From: Bacteroidota bacterium
GTDB taxonomy: Bacteria; Bacteroidota; Bacteroidia; Flavobacteriales; Flavobacteriaceae
Assembly: GCA_022560715.1 (NCBI GenBank)
Contig: JADFSQ010000025.1
Location: 1 to 11,331, forward strand
DNA length: 11,331 bases
Direction: 5' to 3'
Under the pieces are notes generated by a model, which was not told the origin of the DNA, did no database searches, and saw only the letters and a program-made list of their open reading frames with translations. The first letter of the stretch is position 1. Each line of letters opens with the position of its first letter. A program made the translations under genes and the position numbers. Of this stretch, positions 1,189 to 11,323 are shown one piece after another.

Positions 1189-2385
1189 TTATTTTTTATA
1201 TTCTGCAGCTTCTTCTGAACCTTCAGTTACACTTCCCTTACTATAAGAATGGGCTCCCATTCCTGCAAGTTCTCCATCTTTTACAATTAAGTATTGATTT
1301 CTAATGGGTTCATTATCAAAGAAACATTCTAATATTTCTCTGGTACCATCAGCATATCTTGCCTGTGCTGATAGAGATGTTCCCGAAGTGTGTGGAGTCA
1401 TACCGTGATTAGGCATAGTTCTCCAAACGTGATCGTTAGGTGCTGGTTGTGGAAACCAAACATCTCCTGCATAACCACTTAATTGACCAGACTTAAGTGC
1501 TTCTGCAATTGCTTCTTTATTACAAATCTTTCCTCTGGCAGTATTAACTAGATACGCACCTTTTTTCATTTTGTTAATTAAGGTTTCATCAAATAAGTTT
1601 TCAGTTTCTGGATGTAATGGACAATTAATTGTAACTACATCACATACAGCAACCATTGATTCTACAGATTCATGAAACGTTAAATTTAATTCTTGTTCAA
1701 CAGATTCAGGTAATCTATGTCTATCAAAATAATGTAAGTGTACATCAAATGGTTTCATTTTTCTTAAAACAGATAACCCAATTCGTCCAGCCGCTACTGT
1801 ACCAATATGCATTCCTTCTACATCGTAGGAACGTTGAACAGCATCAGCAATATTCCAACCACCTGCTTTTACAATTGCGTGTTGGTTGTGATAATCTCTT
1901 ACTAAAGATAAAATCATCATAACAATATGTTCAGATACAGAAATTGAATTGCAATATGTAACTTCTACAACATCAACTTTATGATCCATTGCCGCTTGTA
2001 AGTCAACGTGATCAGATCCTATACCTGCCGTTATTGCCATTTTTAAATTTGGTGCACTTTCCATTCTTTTTCTTGTCAGGTAGTAAGGCCAGAATGGTTG
2101 TGAGATTACAACATCCGTATCAACTAATTCTTTATCGGCTTCGCAACCGTCAGCATCTTTATCTGATGTAACAACTAATGTATGTCCTCTATCTTCTAAA
2201 AAATTTCTCAATCCTAATTCTCCAGAAACACAACCTAGCAAGTCACCCGGATTAAAATCTCGTCCTTTTGGTGTTGGCAGTGTCATACCATCTGGATATG
2301 TTTCTAATTTAGGTATGCCGTCTAAAGCATATTTGCTTGGCATACCATCTTTTGGGTCGTCATATAAAACACATAATATTTTCAT
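1189..2385 (-). CDS. fdh: NAD-dependent formate dehydrogenase
   Basis: This 398-residue protein is a D-2-hydroxyacid dehydrogenase-superfamily enzyme that oxidises formate to CO2 with NAD+ in the cytoplasm, without metal or molybdenum cofactor (EC 1.17.1.9). It aligns almost end to end with the well-studied Pseudomonas sp. 101 enzyme, as I recall that sequence, and the key residues fall at the same numbers: P97, I122 and N146 for substrate, R284 in NTARGK, Q313, and the catalytic H332 in MTPHTSG. The Rossmann loop is GTVAAGRIG at 195-203. D221 in YFDRHRLP marks NAD+ rather than NADP+ preference. The C-terminal tail GAHSYSKG...EEAA is specific to true formate dehydrogenases. The ATG at 2385 follows AAAGGAAA, one of the few SD-like sites here. 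The gene stands alone, with no other C1 gene nearby. Confidence 0.95.
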   Translation of the reverse strand: MKILCVLYDDPKDGMPSKYALDGIPKLETYPDGMTLPTPKGRDFNPGDLLGCVSGELGLRNFLEDRGHTLVVTSDKDADGCEADKELVDTDVVISQPFWPYYLTRKRMESAPNLKMAITAGIGSDHVDLQAAMDHKVDVVEVTYCNSISVSEHIVMMILSLVRDYHNQHAIVKAGGWNIADAVQRSYDVEGMHIGTVAAGRIGLSVLRKMKPFDVHLHYFDRHRLPESVEQELNLTFHESVESMVAVCDVVTINCPLHPETENLFDETLINKMKKGAYLVNTARGKICNKEAIAEALKSGQLSGYAGDVWFPQPAPNDHVWRTMPNHGMTPHTSGTSLSAQARYADGTREILECFFDNEPIRNQYLIVKDGELAGMGAHSYSKGSVTEGSEEAAEYKK

Positions 2386-2807
2386 TTTCCTTTATGTTAT
2401 ATTATAATTTATTTCCGCTGATTATGCGGCTTATATCTTTTAATTTAACAGCAAGCACCATGTTTAGTGACACTTGGCGTTTTAACCTTAGTTGATTCTT
2501 AAATTTTTGATAAATAAGAATTTTAATAAAATCAAAGGTAATACATTTATTTTAAGTGGGAATTGATATTTATCATTTCTAAAATCCTCGATTTCAGTTT
2601 AAAATCAGCAATATAAATTTCATATATTTATAATAACATCAAGAGTCATTAAATTGACAGCAACCGAGTTAAAACACCACGGTGCTAAAAAGATGAGCCA
2701 AATGGAAAATAAGTTTGCTTCACTTTTTTACTTTCACATTTCTTTTAGTTCGTATAGTTTATATAGGTCTTGGTAAAAAAGTTCGAGAACGGGGTCGTTA
2801 GGAGTAC
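2386..2807. other. Gene-poor intergenic stretch
   Basis: No frame here is long enough or protein-like enough to call. The first part is the leader of the formate dehydrogenase gene (minus strand) and holds a small CCGC/GCGG hairpin at 2415-2429. The part from about 2650 to 2807 precedes a strong plus-strand terminator and contains only a 27-codon frame starting with ATG at about 2693. It may be the worn end of a lost gene, or an untranslated RNA. Confidence 0.5.
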
Positions 2808-2841
2808 AAAAGCCTTAACACAATGTGTTAAGGCTTTTTTT
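2808..2841 (+). terminator. Strong Rho-independent terminator
   Basis: A perfect 14-bp stem, AAAAGCCTTAACAC (2808-2821) against GTGTTAAGGCTTTT (2825-2838), closes an AAT loop and ends in a run of seven Ts (2835-2841) on the plus strand. Read from the minus strand it follows the gene ending at 2881 but has only a short U-run, so it may act in both directions. Confidence 0.85.
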
Positions 2842-2880
2842 ATGAGATAAAACTATCTTACTAATTATTCTGTTATTTGC

Positions 2881-3171
2881 TTATTTATCAAGTAAAGTTT
2901 CCTCTTTCCTTTTAATATCTTTATTAATCCCTTTTAACCACTTAAATTGCCTCTTAATTTCTTTACGTCTTAACTCGGCATTCCATGCTTTTTCTTCTCT
3001 GTCTTTTTGAGACTTCATTTTCCCCTGCCTAAACGTTTCTTCTTTATTAAGTATTTCTTTTTTTCTTTTCTTTTCTTTTGCGGCTCTTATATATCTGTAT
3101 GATATGGAATAAAAATATATTCCAATAAACATTACTATTAAAATAATTAATATTCTTAGACCTCCACTCAT
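2881..3171 (-). CDS. Membrane-anchored basic protein, unknown function
   Basis: The ATG at 3171 gives 96 residues; a TTG three codons earlier is possible but less likely. After a short MSGGLR leader there is one hydrophobic helix at about residues 7-24 (ILIILIVMFIGIYFYSIS). The rest is strongly charged and mostly basic, rich in K, R and E, with an extended helical or coiled-coil look (EKKRKKEILNKEE, KDREEKAWNAELRRKEIKRQ). The topology is probably a single membrane anchor with a positively charged cytoplasmic tail. There is no catalytic motif and I do not recognise the family. It lies downstream of the acidic lipoprotein gene on the same strand, but a hairpin between them suggests separate transcription. 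Confidence 0.65.
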   Translation of the reverse strand: MSGGLRILIILIVMFIGIYFYSISYRYIRAAKEKKRKKEILNKEETFRQGKMKSQKDREEKAWNAELRRKEIKRQFKWLKGINKDIKRKEETLLDK

Positions 3172-3246
3172 GACTATCAAGGATTAATAATTCACTAAAG
3201 ATAAGCAATTCGGTTTAATATGCATAATTTATTGCACAAAATAGCC

Positions 3247-3280
3247 AGCCTTACATAAAAATGTAAGGCTATTTATTTTT
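3247..3280. terminator. Hairpin terminator between two small minus-strand genes
   Basis: A perfect 10-bp stem, AGCCTTACAT (3247-3256) with ATGTAAGGCT (3261-3270), closes an AAAA loop. The plus-strand tail is T-rich (3272-3280), while the minus-strand tail contains TATTTT after a short GGC. It lies 28 bases beyond the stop of the lipoprotein gene and is the probable end of its transcript. Confidence 0.65.
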
Positions 3281-3298
3281 AAAAAGTCAAGTAAGTGA

Positions 3299-3625
3299 TT
3301 AATTGTCTTTTTTCAGTTTGTCTGCAGCTTTAGTAAGCTCGTCAGTTGCTTTTTTACTAGCATCATCAACAACTTCTTCAACAGCTTCAGCAGCGTCATC
3401 AATGGCTCCTTCAACAGCTTCTGTAGCATCATCAATAGCACCTTCAATAGTAGTAGTTGTAGAATCAGTAACAGTTTCTTCTACTTCAATTGCTTCTTCA
3501 GTTGTTTCTTCTACTGCAGCTTCTGTAGCATCTTCTGCTTTATCAGCTTCTTTTTTCTCTCTACAAGATGTAAATGAGAAACATAATGCCAATACTAATG
3601 CAGAACTTAAAATTAGTTTTTTCAT
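3299..3625 (-). CDS. Acidic, repeat-containing lipoprotein
   Basis: This 108-residue protein starts with a classic lipoprotein signal: MKK, a hydrophobic core (LILSSALVLALCFSF), and the lipobox FTSC with C21 as the lipidated residue. The mature part is made almost only of E, A, D, T, V and K. From residue 62 there are three consecutive 11-residue units, GAIDDATEAVE (62-72), GAIDDAAEAVE (73-83) and a diverged EVVDDASKKAT (84-94). They should form an amphipathic helix, as in LEA-like or apolipoprotein-like repeats. The tail is lysine-rich (LTKAADKLKKDN). Flavobacteria often encode such small low-complexity lipoproteins of unknown role; attachment to a membrane facing the periplasm is expected. 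The opposite strand is open over 125 codons only because of this skewed composition. Confidence 0.8.
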   Translation of the reverse strand: MKKLILSSALVLALCFSFTSCREKKEADKAEDATEAAVEETTEEAIEVEETVTDSTTTTIEGAIDDATEAVEGAIDDAAEAVEEVVDDASKKATDELTKAADKLKKDN

Positions 3626-3688
3626 TTTTAGTGTTTTAAAGTTAATTTTTATGCAATTAATAACATCTAATGTATTTTAACAAAATAT

Positions 3689-3718
3689 TTTTAACATTTT
3701 TTTAATATATTGTTAAAA
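3689..3718. terminator. AT-only hairpin downstream of waaA
   Basis: An 8-bp stem, TTTTAACA (3689-3696) with TGTTAAAA (3711-3718), closes a 14-base AT loop just past the waaA stop codon. It lacks GC pairs, so it is at best a weak terminator. Confidence 0.25.
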
Positions 3719-3734
3719 GCGTAAGTTTTTCACT

Positions 3735-4967
3735 CTATTTACGTATGTAATCTATGATTTGGATTACGGCACCACGATTTTTTGCGATATAAATAGCGTT
3801 TAAGTTTCCTGATTGCTTCCTTTTTTCAGTATTTAAAGCCAAAGAATCCAAAATAGCATCAAATTCTTTTTGGTTAGAAACAGCATACATACCACCTCTT
3901 TCTGTCATTTCGTTAGCTTCGGGGAATTTCTTGTGATTTTTTCCAATAATTATAGGTACTCCAAAAACAGCAGCTTCTAAAGTGTTATGAAGTCCAGTAT
4001 TGCCAACTGCACCACCTACAAAAACAATATCTGCATAACTATAAATTTTTGATAAAATGCCAATGGTATCGATAATGAAAACGGGATAGTCTGAAACGTC
4101 TAATCGTTCTTTTTCTGAAAATAGAATTGTTTTCTTTTGAATTGAATTTTTTAAAGTTTCAATTTGTTTAGGTTTTATATTGTGAGGTGCTATAATAAAT
4201 TTTAAATCTTCGGAAGTCGAATTAATATAATCTACAATTATTTTTTCATCTTCTGGCCAAGTACTTCCTGCGACAATACAAAGTTTATCTTGCTTAAACT
4301 GTTTAATAAAACCTAAAGTATTATCTATTTGTAATTGATTATAAACCCGATCGAATCGTGTATCACCAGAAATAGTAACATTAGTAAAACCTATAGATTC
4401 TAACAATTTTTTTGAATTTTCATCTTGAACAAAAATGTGTTCAAAAACGTTTAGTGATTTAAGCAACAATCCTCCATAAAATTTAAAAAATAATTGTTCT
4501 TTTCTAAATAAAGCGGAAATTAATATTGTCCTAACTTTTCTTCTTTTTAATTCATTCAAATAATTTGGCCAAATTTCATACTTCACAAAAATCACTAAAT
4601 CGGGATGCACAAAATTTAAAAATGTTTTTGCATTATACTTGGTGTCCCAAGGTAAATACACCACAATATCAGTTAGCGGATTTTTTTTACGAATCTCGAA
4701 ACCGGAAGAAGAAAAAAAGCTCAATACTATTTTATGATGAGGATATTTTTTTTTAATTTCTTCAAATACAGGAAGTCCTTGTTCGTATTCGCCAAGAGAT
4801 GCGCAATGAAACCAAATTACCTTATCCTGAGATGAAATATTGGATTTTAAAATCTTAAAAGTATTTTTTCTTCCTTCAACACCGAGACGTAACTTGGTAT
4901 TAAAATTTGCAATGATTTTTAAATGAAATGCAGCAACATAAGTGAGTATGTTATAGAGAATCTTCAA
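3735..4967 (-). CDS. waaA: 3-deoxy-D-manno-octulosonic acid (Kdo) transferase
   Basis: WaaA (KdtA) moves Kdo from CMP-Kdo to the lipid A precursor at the cytoplasmic face of the inner membrane, the first core step of lipopolysaccharide synthesis. The 410-residue length is normal for the family. A short hydrophobic N-terminal anchor (about 4-20) precedes the glycosyltransferase-N domain, with the invariant HCASLGEYEQG, where E60 is the catalytic base. Then come FFSSSGFE, LPWDTKYNA, KYEIWPN and GDTRFDRV. The C-terminal GT-B half has VAGSTWPEDE, APHNIKP and the donor-site GGAVGNTGLHNTLEAA with the following GVPIIIGK. The start codon is TTG at 4965-4967; the N-terminus from there fits the family and no upstream ATG exists before the divergent gene. 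It is transcribed away from the sugar aminotransferase, the two starts lying 81 bases apart. Confidence 0.95.
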   Translation of the reverse strand: MKILYNILTYVAAFHLKIIANFNTKLRLGVEGRKNTFKILKSNISSQDKVIWFHCASLGEYEQGLPVFEEIKKKYPHHKIVLSFFSSSGFEIRKKNPLTDIVVYLPWDTKYNAKTFLNFVHPDLVIFVKYEIWPNYLNELKRRKVRTILISALFRKEQLFFKFYGGLLLKSLNVFEHIFVQDENSKKLLESIGFTNVTISGDTRFDRVYNQLQIDNTLGFIKQFKQDKLCIVAGSTWPEDEKIIVDYINSTSEDLKFIIAPHNIKPKQIETLKNSIQKKTILFSEKERLDVSDYPVFIIDTIGILSKIYSYADIVFVGGAVGNTGLHNTLEAAVFGVPIIIGKNHKKFPEANEMTERGGMYAVSNQKEFDAILDSLALNTEKRKQSGNLNAIYIAKNRGAVIQIIDYIRK

Positions 4968-7394: not shown

Positions 7395-8669
7395 ATGAAA
7401 AAATTACTTTTTCTTTTAACAATACTGTTTTCTTTCAGTATTACTTCTCAAAACACCTATTTACATTGCGGAAAATTAATAGACACTAAAAATGGTAAAG
7501 TGCTTACAAATAAAACTGTTGTAGTTTCTGGTAAAACAATTTTATCTATTCTGGATGGTTATATAACGCCAGAAAATTCTAAAGATACTGTTATCGATTT
7601 GAAAGATAAAACCGTAATGCCTGGGCTTATTGATATGCACGTGCATTTAGAAAGTGAATTAAGTCCGAAATCGTATGTAGAACCTTTTATACTTAATGAA
7701 GCTGATATTGCCTTTAATTCTCAAAAACATGCGAAAAAAACTCTAATGGCAGGTTTTACTACTGTTAGAGATTTAGGGGGAAGTGGTGTTAATGTTTCGT
7801 TACGTAATGCCATTGCTCAAGAAAAAGTTGTTGGACCTCGAATTTTAACTGCCGAAAAAGCATTAGGAACAACAGGAGGACATGCTGACCCAACAAATGG
7901 GAGAAGTAAAGCATTAATGGGTGATCCAGGGCCAAAAGAAGGTGTTGTAAATAGTGTAGATGATGCCAGAAAAGCAGTGAGACAACGCTATAAAAATGGT
8001 GCAGATTGGATTAAAATCACAGCAACTGGTGGAGTGTTAAGCGTTGCCAAAAGCGGACAAAACCCACAATTTACTTTAGAAGAAATTAAAGCTATTTGCG
8101 AAACAGCAAAAGACTACGGAATGCAAGTTGCCGCTCATGCTCATGGCGATGAAGGTATGAGGCGTGCCATATTAGGAGGTGTTAAAACTATAGAACATGG
8201 TACTTTAATGAGTGCTGAAACTATGGAGTTAATGAAAGAGTATAATGTGTATTATGTGCCAACAATTACTGCTGGAAAATCTGTAGAAGCTAAGGCAAAA
8301 ATTAAAGGCTATTTTCCAGAGATAATTGTTCCTAAAGCATTAGCAATTGGGCCAAAAATTCAGGATACTTTCAGAAAAGCATATAGTAAAGGCGTACTTA
8401 TTGCATTCGGTACAGATGCTGGTGTTTTTAACCATGGACAAAACGGAAAAGAGTTTGGTTATATGGTTGAAGCCGGAATGCCAGCTATTGAAACTATACA
8501 AAGTGCTACAATTACGAATGCGAAAGTTTTAGAGTTGGATAATTTAGGGCAAATTGCTGTCGGATTTCTTGCCGATATTGTTGCTACAGACGAAGATCCA
8601 ACTCAAAACATTCACACGATGGAAACTATTGTTTTTGTAATGAAAGAAGGAAAAATTTATAAGCAATAA
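7395..8669 (+). CDS. Secreted metal-dependent amidohydrolase (imidazolonepropionase/prolidase-like)
   Basis: This 424-residue amidohydrolase-superfamily enzyme has a Sec signal peptide (MKKLLFLLTILFSFSITS, cleavage near residue 19), so it should act in the periplasm or outside the cell. The binuclear metal site is complete: H82 and H84 in DMHVH, a carbamylatable lysine K207 in DWIKITATGG, H248 in AAHAHG, H268 in IEHGT, and D341 in FGTDAG. GGHADPTNG and NHGQNGKEF are also typical of this group, which includes Xaa-Pro and Xaa-Arg/Lys dipeptidases (Sgx9260-like) and is usually annotated as imidazolonepropionase-like. Dipeptide or other amide hydrolysis is likely, but the substrate is not determined; it is not true HutI, which is cytoplasmic. 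It begins 27 bases after galE and is probably read on the same transcript. Confidence 0.88.
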   Translation: MKKLLFLLTILFSFSITSQNTYLHCGKLIDTKNGKVLTNKTVVVSGKTILSILDGYITPENSKDTVIDLKDKTVMPGLIDMHVHLESELSPKSYVEPFILNEADIAFNSQKHAKKTLMAGFTTVRDLGGSGVNVSLRNAIAQEKVVGPRILTAEKALGTTGGHADPTNGRSKALMGDPGPKEGVVNSVDDARKAVRQRYKNGADWIKITATGGVLSVAKSGQNPQFTLEEIKAICETAKDYGMQVAAHAHGDEGMRRAILGGVKTIEHGTLMSAETMELMKEYNVYYVPTITAGKSVEAKAKIKGYFPEIIVPKALAIGPKIQDTFRKAYSKGVLIAFGTDAGVFNHGQNGKEFGYMVEAGMPAIETIQSATITNAKVLELDNLGQIAVGFLADIVATDEDPTQNIHTMETIVFVMKEGKIYKQ

Positions 8670-8681
8670 TTACAAAAATAC

Positions 8682-8768
8682 ACCTACAAGGAATTCCTGC
8701 AAGGTTTTAACTTGTCCGCCGAAGATTTATCGAAAGAGGAAAACCCTGTAGGTATAAACCTTGCAGGA
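8682..8768. repeat. Palindromic repeat cluster with four related arms
   Basis: Four versions of one motif (CCTRCARGGTTTT and its reverse complement) are present. ACCTACAAGG (8682-8691) matches the complement of CCCTGTAGGT (8744-8753) with one mismatch. TCCTGCAAGGTTT (8695-8707) is perfectly complementary to AAACCTTGCAGGA (8756-8768). The pairing order is interleaved rather than nested. The cluster lies 12 bases after the amidohydrolase stop and may form its transcript end. No transposase is present. Confidence 0.65.
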
Positions 8769-8831
8769 TAAATGATTTTTTTCAATTTAACTCAATAATG
8801 AAACGGTAGAATTAGAAGACTTTTTCTATTT

Positions 8832-8963
8832 AACGGTTTGGCTATGCTTCTGTTGTGGACTTAAGTAGCTATTATTTTCCTCATTAAAATTATTTTCTTA
8901 AATTAGCAATAACTTAAATAATGCCCTAAACCACAATAGAGTATAGTCGTTGTTTGTACCGTT
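8832..8963. repeat. Imperfect palindromic element abutting the group II intron
   Basis: The left arm has AACGGT (8832-8837) then GGCTATGCTTCTGTTGTGG (8840-8858). The right arm has CCACAATAGAGTATAGTC (8931-8948) and finally ACCGTT (8958-8963), the exact complement of the left end. The 72-base centre has no reading frame. The element ends at the base before the intron. It resembles the intergenic palindromes with AAC...GTT ends common in Flavobacteriia, and is vaguely like an integron attC site, but no full R'/R'' core pair is present. Confidence 0.55.
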
Positions 8964-9720
8964 GTGTGTCCTGCGTTACTTGGGGATACAAGATAAGATT
9001 AAGTTCTTTGACATACAAGTAACAAAACTGTAATTGAGATGACAGGATATTTGTATTAGTCCGCCCACTAATATGATTATGGTCTATCGGCTGGGGTGTT
9101 CAGGCAAATCAGTCAAACCGCCTTATGGGGCTTACCTTTCACGGGTTGGTCTTGAGCGTTAAGGTCAAAGGCACTACCGCATTTGTATTGTGAGTAGAGA
9201 GCTATGGTAGGAGTAGAGGAGTTGAAAGAGATGAGATTGAACCTTTGTAGAAGTGTCGTAAACAACTTTAGTATTGTCAAAATCGAGGGATTGACGGTCT
9301 TGCGAGAAAAGTCTTGACGAGAGTAACCTGATTTATTGGTCAAGAGGCAATCGGCATATAGGAGGCAAGAACTTTACTTACTGCTCAATTACGGAACAGG
9401 AGAAACTTCTAATGTGATGTTAAGGAAGAACGGCATAACCCCGAATGGGCAAGCTTAAGAGTACCGATGCACATAAGGAGTGGCGGACTAACTCGTAGTA
9501 GCGAAAAGTATTAATAGATGTCTTTGGAAACTTAGATGTAGCGAAGGGGTTAGCATACGCTTATGGTAGGCGATTTTGCCAACTTATCATTGTTGTTAAG
9601 GAAGAGCTTGTGTACTACCAAACAATGAAAATTGTGCGTATGAAGAGCCGTATGATGGGAGACTATCACGTACGGTTCTGTGAGAGGTTTAGGGGTGAAA
9701 TTCCCCTTTACCTACTCGTC
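8964..9720 (+). mobile_element. ORF-less group II intron
   Basis: A complete group II ribozyme of about 757 bases lacking a reverse transcriptase gene. The 5' end is GTGTGTCC, fitting the GUGYG consensus. Exon pairing is visible: EBS2 AAACAAC (9260-9266) is perfectly complementary to IBS2 GTTGTTT (8949-8955), and EBS1 GACGGT (9293-9298) pairs with IBS1 ACCGTT (8958-8963) using five Watson-Crick pairs and one G-U. Domain IV is closed by CATACGC (9554-9560) with GCGTATG (9636-9642), has an inner TGGTAG/CTACCA stem, and is only about 90 bases long, so no ORF is encoded. Domains V and VI follow. It sits between two convergent genes and interrupts no protein. Splicing or movement would need a maturase supplied from elsewhere. 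The 3' end reads GTC rather than the usual AY, so that boundary may be off by a few bases. Confidence 0.88.
9645..9720 (+). ncRNA. Group II intron domains V and VI
   Basis: Domain V is 34 bases (9645-9678). It starts GAGCCGTA with the AGC catalytic triad, has a GAGA tetraloop on an upper GATGG/CTATC stem and a two-base bulge, and ends TACGGTTC. Domain VI (about 9682-9717) pairs GAG-AGGT with ACCT-CTC and GGGG with CCCC, leaving A9714 bulged as the expected lariat branch point. That is the seventh base from an intron end at 9720, the usual distance. Confidence 0.93.
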
Positions 9721-9743
9721 GTTTTATTTCCGTATTGTCGGTA

Positions 9744-9834
9744 GCGTTGGCGAAGGCATACTCTTTGACAAGTTTTGGCTCGTGTGGCTGGTATTTTGAG
9801 CGACTTGGCAATGTGTATGGCTTTATGCGTTGGC
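9744..9834. repeat. Imperfect palindrome flanked by 8-bp direct repeats, after hsdM
   Basis: GGCATACTCTTTGACAAGT (9755-9773) pairs with ACTTGGCAATGTGTATGGC (9803-9821), 15 of 19 positions, with an inner GCTC/GAGC stem (9778-9781, 9798-9801). The direct repeat GCGTTGGC stands on each side (9744-9751 and 9827-9834). The right repeat overlaps the last base of the hsdM stop codon. In the hsdM direction the hairpin could help end the transcript, though it has no U-tract. Confidence 0.55.
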
Positions 9835-11323
9835 TATTCATTCTCTCCGTTAATTGTTTCCATTATCTCTCTAAAACTATTCAGTCCAGATTCAATATTT
9901 TCTATGATTTCATTAGCTAAAATGTCGGGGTCTGGCAAGTTGTCTAAATCGGTCAAGCTTTTATCTCTTAACCAAAAGATGTCGAGGTTGGTTTTGTCTC
10001 TCGCTATTATTTCATCATAGGTGTATTTTCGCCATCTTCCTTCTTCATTTTCAGCACTCCAAGTTTCTTTTCTTTTGTTAATATTCTTTGGATTATAACA
10101 TTTCACAAAGTCTGCTAAATCCTCAAATCGCATTGGGTTTTTCTTTGGTGTGTGATGTACATTTGTTCTGTAATCATAAAACCATATTTCTTTGGTATGA
10201 GCTTCTTTACTTGCAGGTTTATTATTGAAAAACAAAACATTTGCTTTTACTCCTTGTGCATAAAATATACCTGTTGGCAATCTTAAAATAGTGTGTAACT
10301 CTGTCGTTTTCATTAACTGTTTTCTAACTTCTTCTCCTGCTCCACCTTCAAATAAAATATTATCAGGAAGTACGACAGCCGCTTCTCCTGTAATTTTTAA
10401 TTGGGTTTTTATGTGTTGTAAGAAGTTCAATTGCTTATTGGAAGTTGTTTCCCAAAAATCTTGACGATTGTAGCTCAAATCTTCTTTTACAATATCTCCC
10501 TTCTCATTAGTAAAAGTCATACTGCTTTTTTTACCGAAAGGAGGATTGGCAAGTACATAATCATATCTACTTCCATCATCTGAAACCAAAGCATCAGCAG
10601 GCGATAAAAAGCTTTCTCCATCTATTTCGCCAATGTTGTGCAATACATATTCATCAAACACAACCTACGCGTATTGGCTACAATCTCATTTCCGTGAAAG
10701 GTGTTGTTTTTTAAAAAAGATTTTTCTTCTCGGTCCAGTTTATTATTTCCTGCAATCCAATCGTAAGCTGCTAAAAAGAAACCACCTGTTCCACAAGCAG
10801 GGTCGGCAATGGTTTTCATCGGTTGGGGTTGAACACATTCTACCATAGCCCGAATCAATTGACGAGGGGTAAAGTATTGCCCTGCTCCGCTTTTTACGTC
10901 TTCTGCATTTTTTTCAAACAACCCTTCGTAAATGTCGCTTTTAATATCGGCCCCCATCACGAGCCAGTTTTCGCTGTCCATCATATCAATTACCTTCGCC
11001 AACATGGCTGGGTCTTGAATTTTATTTTGGCTTTTGGTAAATAGTTGCCCCAGTATTCCTTTTTGTGTACTTAACTCCCGCAGCAATGTAGCATAATGCA
11101 AATCTAACTCTGCACCTTTTAATGCGGTTAAGCTTTCCCAATTATATTCTTTAGGAATATACATTTTGCGGTTGTATGGCGGTTTGCTATATTCATCGGC
11201 CATTTTTAAAAACAGTAAATAGGTGAGTTGTTCTAAATAATCGCCATAACCTACACCTACATCACGTAGGGGATTACAGAAACTCCATACTTTACTAACT
11301 ATACTGGCTGTGTTGCTGCTCAT
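9834..11323 (-). pseudogene. hsdM: Type I restriction-modification N6-adenine methylase subunit, frameshifted
   Basis: HsdM is the SAM-dependent DNA adenine methyltransferase of type I systems and works as a complex with the specificity subunit HsdS. The first frame (10622-11323) gives the helical HsdM N-terminal domain and motif I: GAGQYFTPR at 147-153 and following, DPACGTGGF at 174-182, then FHGNEIVANTRRLCLMNMY ending at Y227. It then runs off into CTTLAK and stop. The second frame (9834-10661) continues with LHNIGEIDGESF, YDYVLANPPFG (motif IV, NPPF), LPDNILFEG and LRLPTGIF, to a normal C-terminus. One missing base in the AA at 10642-10643 (T on the coding strand) explains the break: adding it restores TAT-TTG-CAC and a 496-residue protein of usual length. 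No slippery run is present. The ATG at 11323 lies eight bases from the window edge. No hsdS follows downstream. Confidence 0.9.

Follow-up and report, generated by a model that had tools for sequence, protein, structure and literature searches.

An ORF-less group II intron at an attC-like hairpin in the Flavobacteriaceae, from a family with reverse transcriptase-bearing members

ORF-less group II introns are described as rare in bacteria, and C.te.I1 of Clostridium tetani, which self-splices in vitro, as the sole one without a related IEP gene (PMC4424553). In T. elongatus, introns retain DIVa when their ORF is deleted; DIVa is described as the critical IEP-binding region of IIA introns (PMC2882425). 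The ORF-less TeI3 introns of this organism, which are driven in trans by the TeI4 IEPs, are reported to stem from one deletion in one genome (PMC2882425). Other described systems concern the insertion site. Class C introns use terminators (PMC4424553), and IIC-attC introns, which belong to an En-minus class, occupy the attC bottom strand, antisense to the cassettes, with the hairpin 5ʹ of the intron (PMC7923331, PMC4424553). Additionally, Sonbol & Siam 2021 described introns of class IIB beside attC sites of integrons from hypersaline settings. There are one complete and two truncated examples, named UHB.I2 and H.ha.F1/F2, and hairpin recognition was proposed for them (PMC7923331). In Bacteroidetes proper, the account of IntegronFinder 2.0 names one complete integron, that of Salinibacter ruber (PMC9024848). 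In the literature searched, no paper was found on group II introns at attC sites or integrons of Bacteroidetes or on ORF-less flavobacterial ones, which does not prove that none exists.

The window, meaning the whole stretch of 11,331 nt analyzed here, belongs to a MAG of 444 contigs that is 81.6% complete (G000). On its plus strand lies an ORF-less group II intron of 757 nt (8964–9720; 5ʹ-GUGUG ... CUCGUC-3ʹ), identified by Rfam matches and by boundaries taken from relatives. The preliminary description of it holds on almost every point, and its interpretation in part. The intron is probably a non-autonomous, RT-less intron from an RT-bearing family that inserts beside attC-like cassette hairpins and is mobilized in trans by the RT of a sibling. 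The family is apparently without an endonuclease domain, and its hosts are Flavobacteriaceae and other Bacteroidota.

By analogy, the presumed working of the intron is like a combination of TeI3-type dependent introns and IIC-attC introns. With TeI3 the family shares a deleted DIVb ORF, a retained DIVa and ORF-less copies that multiply. Unlike the TeI3 deletion as described, ORF loss here is spread over several branches and many genera, the ORF-less members frequently occur in genomes where no family RT is found, and the target is an attC-like hairpin with no clear EBS match (PMC2882425). The likeness to IIC-attC introns extends to the bottom strand, the antisense orientation, the 5ʹ hairpin and the En-minus class. 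However, the domain V triad is CGC in IIC introns (PMC7923331) and AGC (GAGCCG...) in the window, so that this intron falls outside IIC. Moreover, insertion is 13 nt past the start of the GTTR core rather than within TTGT/T, ORF-less forms recur, and a sister sublineage uses the other strand (PMC7923331, PMC4424553). UHB.I2 and H.ha.F1/F2 are likewise non-IIC introns beside attC or attC-like structures, but UHB.I2 is oriented as the cassettes and the window's sublineage is opposite; compared with these hypersaline introns, the present set offers 26 junctions, a covariation-supported hairpin and RT-less members (PMC7923331). The family extends what is known of non-IIC introns at attC-like hairpins in number of junctions, in orientation and by its RT-less members. 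C.te.I1 is likewise an ORF-less bacterial intron and has no related RT in its genome (PMC4424553); none was found in the 81.6%-complete MAG of the window. C.te.I1 is described as self-splicing in vitro (PMC4424553), and splicing of the window intron is a prediction.

Ribozyme anatomy, constraint and domain IV

The 5ʹ end, GUGUG at 8964, fits the group II consensus GUGYG, and this start is common to 26 distinct 5ʹ junctions with differing flanks, found with a pattern for the first 12 bases of the intron. Part of domain I (9075–9191) matches RF01999, group-II-D1D4-2, at 52.1 bits (gathering 36), and RF00029, covering domains V and VI, matches 9643–9719 at 61 bits against a gathering threshold of 40, both on the plus strand. 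Domain V (9645–9678) is 34 nt long with its AGC triad, and the same 34-mer occurs in many relatives. In the RF00029 alignment, domain VI (9679–9720) has a bulged branch A at 9714; it ends in UC (9719–9720), where relatives end in AC. The covariance-model search called for in the preliminary description bears out its 34-nt domain V and its branch-A domain VI; its 5ʹ consensus holds as well. Among 22 excised introns, the 3ʹ end reads CTCGAC in 19 and CTCGTC in the window, with two lacking a recognizable end; the ends of the relatives place that of the window intron at 9720, one base past the Rfam match. Both copies in this genome thus have UC in place of the group II 3ʹ AY, which is a consensus and not an absolute feature, and 19 of the 22 introns have AC. 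None of the three sense frames of the intron contains a stop-free stretch of at least 80 codons, in agreement with the earlier statement that it encodes no RT or maturase.

The window intron has the six-domain group II fold. When 12 RT-bearing relatives, without the window, are used to predict a consensus structure, the window keeps 165 of the 188 scorable pairs (88%), a further 13 pairs being gapped, whereas random placement of its substitutions keeps 75 ± 2% of pairs and at most 81% in 500 runs. The fold is therefore under constraint. In 15 of the kept pairs, both sides differ from the commonest pair. Unique departures from otherwise invariant columns number 16 in the window. Of 17 RT-bearing copies, 16 have 0–6 such departures and one has 14; these counts are lowered by several near-identical members. 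Such departures, together with the A-to-U change that gives the UC end, are in keeping with a decaying relic, in which the RT has been lost, splicing and movement are gone, and structure persists only since the loss is recent. This explanation is nevertheless unlikely: the substitutions avoid breaking pairs, domain V is identical to that of the RT-bearing copies, and the genome contains a second copy that shares the UC end and has a different 3ʹ exon.

That second ORF-less copy (C118:1–127), cut by the contig start, is 99% identical over its 127 nt and argues for mobility in the ORF-less state. The interior of contig C284 additionally contains a diverged 3ʹ fragment of 48 nt (92% identical, ending in AAC), which has the pattern of a 5ʹ-truncated insertion of a related intron. 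RF00029 matches in the genome are confined to C436 and C118. Searching the same genome, as had been advised, accordingly yielded a further copy and a fragment but no intron RT that matches.

Pairing of EBS1 and EBS2 with IBS1 and IBS2, a further element of the preliminary description, finds no comparative support. Candidates sought by own-versus-cross pairing over 22 introns gave nothing convincing and no own-specific pairing, with the best column at 0.64 for own and 0.54 for cross exons. Only a short constant AAC/GTT match with the exon is possible.

Domain IV is short (9539–9643, 105 nt) and, as previously noted, closed, by a stem of 9554–9560 with 9636–9642 (CATACGC/GCGTATG). By eye, the stem at the same place is CTTAAC/GTTAAG in RT-bearing relatives and CAAGACC/GGTCTTG in the ORF-less copies of G010 and G225: the sequences differ and pairing is retained. 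In RT-bearing introns, domain IV opens with TTACAACT-stem-AGGATGATTTT, start codon included. Alignment and fold identify a homologous remnant of this start-codon region in the window, D4a (9576–9608, plus strand; TTGCCAACTT...AAGGAAGAGCT), whose ATG reads AAG. Ten columns of D4a are invariant across six ORF-less and eight RT-bearing segments hand-picked around the motif. Scored by pattern or by eye, D4a is kept in 10 ORF-less copies from nine genomes (G000, G010, G225, G395 with two, G370, G162, G296, G050 and G144); G013 and G122 have a diverged, only faintly recognizable form, and the copy of G177 is cut. By analogy with DIVa, the retained D4a may be bound by an RT acting in trans.

The attC-like hairpin and its cassette setting

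The 5ʹ exon of the intron is an attC-like hairpin of 131 nt (8828–8958, plus strand), with R''/L'' in the left arm and L'/R' in the right, that ends 5 nt before the intron starts; the plus strand here is the attC bottom strand. The hairpin scores 75.5 bits with R1, a covariance model of 16 exons picked by eye for a standard-length hairpin and then by AACG at −130 to −141. The window is among these 16 members, as is the misaligned L074, and 10 of the 26 exons were left out. R1 finds the hairpin at 22 of the 26 junctions, including six of the 10 outside the model, and gives no match at L037, L040, L068 and L080. The 16 members have attC-type AAC/GTT ends and an inner L box. More generally, the right arm common to the 5ʹ exons resembles TATANNNTGTTRNNNNNNNGTT and directly precedes the junction. 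In 20 of the 26 junctions, GTTR begins at exactly −13 (background frequency of TGTTR, 0.0026), a count that scored GTTR alone and not the full RRRY. The window reads GTTTGTA, departing from the attC R' consensus GTTRRRY.

The hairpin covaries. In 16 of the 26 exons, 82.1% of cells are paired compared with 65.2% in shuffled ones, and double-change cells number 57 versus 24.6 ± 3.6 (0 of 500 shuffles); pairing drops sharply when the arms are slid. With a strict arm score, 17 of the 26 sites reach p<0.05 and nine p<0.01, and the window has p=0.17. G.T wobbles fall mostly on the intron sense strand (55 vs 6 in 22 hairpins; 59 vs 11 in all 26), making this the best-folding strand. Furthermore, all 18 sites that could be called have the next gene 3ʹ of the intron on the minus strand, and in 14 of them its stop is no more than ~30 nt away. 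For the window's sublineage, this arrangement is that of a gene cassette whose intron occupies the attC bottom strand and runs antisense to the cassettes.

In the window, the neighboring genes are convergent, as reported earlier: an amidohydrolase gene at 7395–8669 (plus) and, nearest on the 3ʹ side, the C-terminal part of an HsdM-like methyltransferase at 9834–10661 (minus), whose stop faces the intron across a gap of ~115 nt. The telling context is not this arrangement but the hairpin directly 5ʹ of the intron, which the preliminary description had missed. The HsdM-like reading consists of two overlapping minus-strand ORFs over 9834–11323 and is therefore frameshifted or a pseudogene. A repeat of ~117 nt with inverted segments (8674–8789) lies 3ʹ of the amidohydrolase gene and has partial copies elsewhere in the genome and in genus mates. 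Further upstream, a SAM-I/IV riboswitch (2631–2721, plus; 58.7 bits) has no evident plus-strand gene close downstream.

In four of four other genomes from the genus, similarity to the amidohydrolase region breaks off at 8669–8672, just past the gene, so the block of hairpin and intron is probably new here. An intron-free hairpin, 89% identical to 8828–8958, exists at C211:1497–1620 of the same genome. This insertion boundary and the cassette-type site would also fit a passenger, an intron that has ceased to retrohome, is carried along with its cassette by a cassette recombinase and needs no maturase to splice, as has been speculated for C.te.I1. The evidence from reverse transcriptases, given below, makes this quite improbable.

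R1-type elements occur in nine of nine genomes searched, with at least 12–29 in each; the counts are lower bounds, with 150 candidates scored per genome. G010, G125, G177 and G292 have such elements though they contributed nothing to R1. At G177:C12 (L152 283–8586), each of the eight elements comes immediately after a minus-strand ORF, and the array is headed by a 375-aa recombinase-like ORF with a TIGR02249 match below the cut-off. At G177:C118 (L148), the next gene is on the minus strand for all 10 elements that have one, within 25 nt for eight. For the Salinimicrobium locus L077, the figure is two of seven because ORFs of 60 aa are scarce between its elements, and the three loci together give 20 of 25. 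The two G177 loci and Salinimicrobium L077 and L078 have the appearance of integron-like arrays of attC-like hairpins. The integron integrase model TIGR02249 has matches in 15 of 15 genomes, above the cut-off in none, and was set aside as integrase evidence since the 14 control genomes match too. An array-side gene at G177:C57, similar to the C12 ORF, passes NF040815 (225.5 vs 220 bits). Around the intron-free element of the window's genome (C211 1497–4071; L140), a transposase-like ORF and a recombinase-like ORF can be read by eye. The latter begins with a stretch similar to the N-terminal extension seen in the G177 gene, and two stops are counted in its TIGR02249 match.

The 5ʹ exon hairpin could be of the terminator type, as in ordinary IIC introns, rather than attC-like, given that class C introns use terminators (PMC4424553). 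This is very improbable, because the element is 131 nt long with AAC/GTT ends, an unpaired spacer and a long inner box, and because no plus-strand terminator-like site appears in 8600–9900 in a scan that sees short loops only. The elements that follow minus-strand ORFs in both G177 arrays also argue against a terminator, although L077 does not show this regularity.

Three copies of a second ORF-less sublineage have a junction R1 match (L093, L099 and L102, from G395, G296 and G122), and in each of them intron and hairpin are on opposite strands, the intron apparently being inserted inside the inner box; by eye, L020 and L026 of this sublineage also sit inside the inner box. Bottom-strand insertion is therefore not general, and the two sublineages use the same element in two ways. 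Possibly, though this wider proposal is tentative, the Flavobacteriaceae have a mostly overlooked integron-like cassette system of attC-like arrays and a XerA/IntI-like recombinase with an N-terminal extension. Its hairpins would be the homing target of more than one type of non-IIC intron, on either strand, and the introns that lost their RT on several branches would survive in various genera as non-autonomous, SINE-like elements keeping only the maturase-binding D4a.

Relatives and the distribution of reverse transcriptases

Among 397 family genomes sampled, 34 match the intron and 33 the second ORF-less sublineage, with 37 in the lists combined; many of these genome matches cover the conserved domain V–VI end only. 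Related introns in Bacteroidetes, whose absence would have counted against the preliminary description, are thus many. Domain IV of the full-length relatives encodes an RT/maturase of 419 aa (TIGR04416 374 bits, cut-off 300), and this RT ends soon after domain X, so that the family appears to be En-minus. RT-bearing relatives are found in Aquimarina, Flavivirga, Nonlabens, Cellulophaga, Polaribacter, Salinimicrobium, Aequorivita and Psychroflexus, and also in Saprospiraceae, Chlorobiota and Alkaliflexus records. The list of relatives comprises 28 loci, partial and distant ones included. Plasmid and phage collections gave 42 plasmid records and one phage record, none matching over 80% of the intron, and among the matches listed only the domain V–VI end is covered.

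ORF-less copies, counted where the match runs through domain IV, are present in 12 genomes: G000, G010, G225, G395 (two), G370, G162, G296, G050 (two), G013, G122, G144 and G177, the last with a copy at a contig end. The G177 copy has the 3ʹ half of the window's D4 (95.8% over 120 nt) with the ATG intact. At G144:C25 (L043 1–2251), an RT-bearing intron and an ORF-less one follow in tandem with no exon between them. The window intron forms a clade with the G010 and G225 copies (support 1.0 in one tree and 99 in another), which adjoins RT-bearing copies of Nonlabens and Polaribacter, and the trees show ORF loss on a branch common to three genera. Other ORF-less copies are on other branches, one of them beside the G125 intron (bootstrap 100), whose label as RT-bearing comes from its split match; the RT appears to have been lost repeatedly, on several branches. 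A single ORF loss for the whole family was considered, and the tree, in which some nodes are weakly supported, does not favor it. A grouping of the G010 ORF-less copy with an RT-bearing copy, in a tree of 600-nt prefixes (support 0.53), was also discarded, as later trees group G010 with the window.

A family RT is present in four of the 12 genomes with ORF-less copies (G010, G144, G177 and G050, the last with one stop inside). Five others (G000, G013, G162, G296 and G370) have only distant RTs, the best per genome being 33–37% identical; G162 has in addition a weak match and two short fragments from the end of a family RT, and one more weak match occurs in G296. No RT match is detectable in the remaining three, G122, G225 and G395 (99% complete). 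In the window's own genome, no family RT was found in the contigs of the 81.6%-complete MAG. Its sole RVT_1 match, on C72, encodes an RT of 438 aa, 34% identical to that of the window's family, inside an intron of another type (RF02001, D1D4-3). With boundaries drawn by eye, this C72 intron (2056–4100 region) starts where an attC-like element (C72:2056–2190) has its R' end, and the stop codon of the downstream gene abuts its 3ʹ end.

Function in trans with a maturase encoded elsewhere, as suggested earlier, is plausible, given that D4a is kept and that four of the 12 ORF-less genomes hold a family RT, but the intron's own genome yielded none. The lack of a family RT in most ORF-less genomes limits the trans model, unless the driver was lost or missed. 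That none was found in G000 favors the relic explanation, as do relatives that look decayed: domain V is altered in G013, G122 and G162, G395:C1 has an insert between domains V and VI, and the G225 copy is without the usual 3ʹ end of domain VI, yet Rfam aligns it end to end at 56.6 bits. In L095 (G162; 1950–2069), domain V starts GCGCCG, and its triad would be CGC, not AGC. The passenger explanation, for its part, gains from the three genomes with no RT match. However, a maturase acting in trans accounts better for the loss of the RT on several branches while D4a was kept, and MAG incompleteness can hide an RT in the window's genome, though not in the 99%-complete G122, G225 and G395.

Proposed mobilization in trans and its meaning

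Under the favored explanation, that of a dependent intron mobilized by a sibling RT, intron RNA would be made by read-through transcription and fold into a ribozyme. The RT/maturase of an RT-bearing sibling, present now or formerly, would bind the retained D4a hairpin and aid splicing. The intron RNA would then reverse-splice beside an exposed attC-like bottom strand, recognized through the hairpin and the short IBS1 match (GTT-AAC), and reverse transcription and host replication would complete the insertion. Early stops of the RT would leave 5ʹ-truncated copies.

The window intron is worth more as a marker of its family and of the hairpin target than as a single intron. As a family whose ORF-less introns recur, are spread over genera and in many cases have no family RT, it would be a natural model for the passage from an autonomous retroelement to a dependent intron. 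To judge from the hairpin target, attC-type recognition seems not to be confined to class IIC, and the introns offer a way to find cassette arrays in a phylum where, according to the IntegronFinder 2.0 account, integrons have seldom been reported (PMC9024848).
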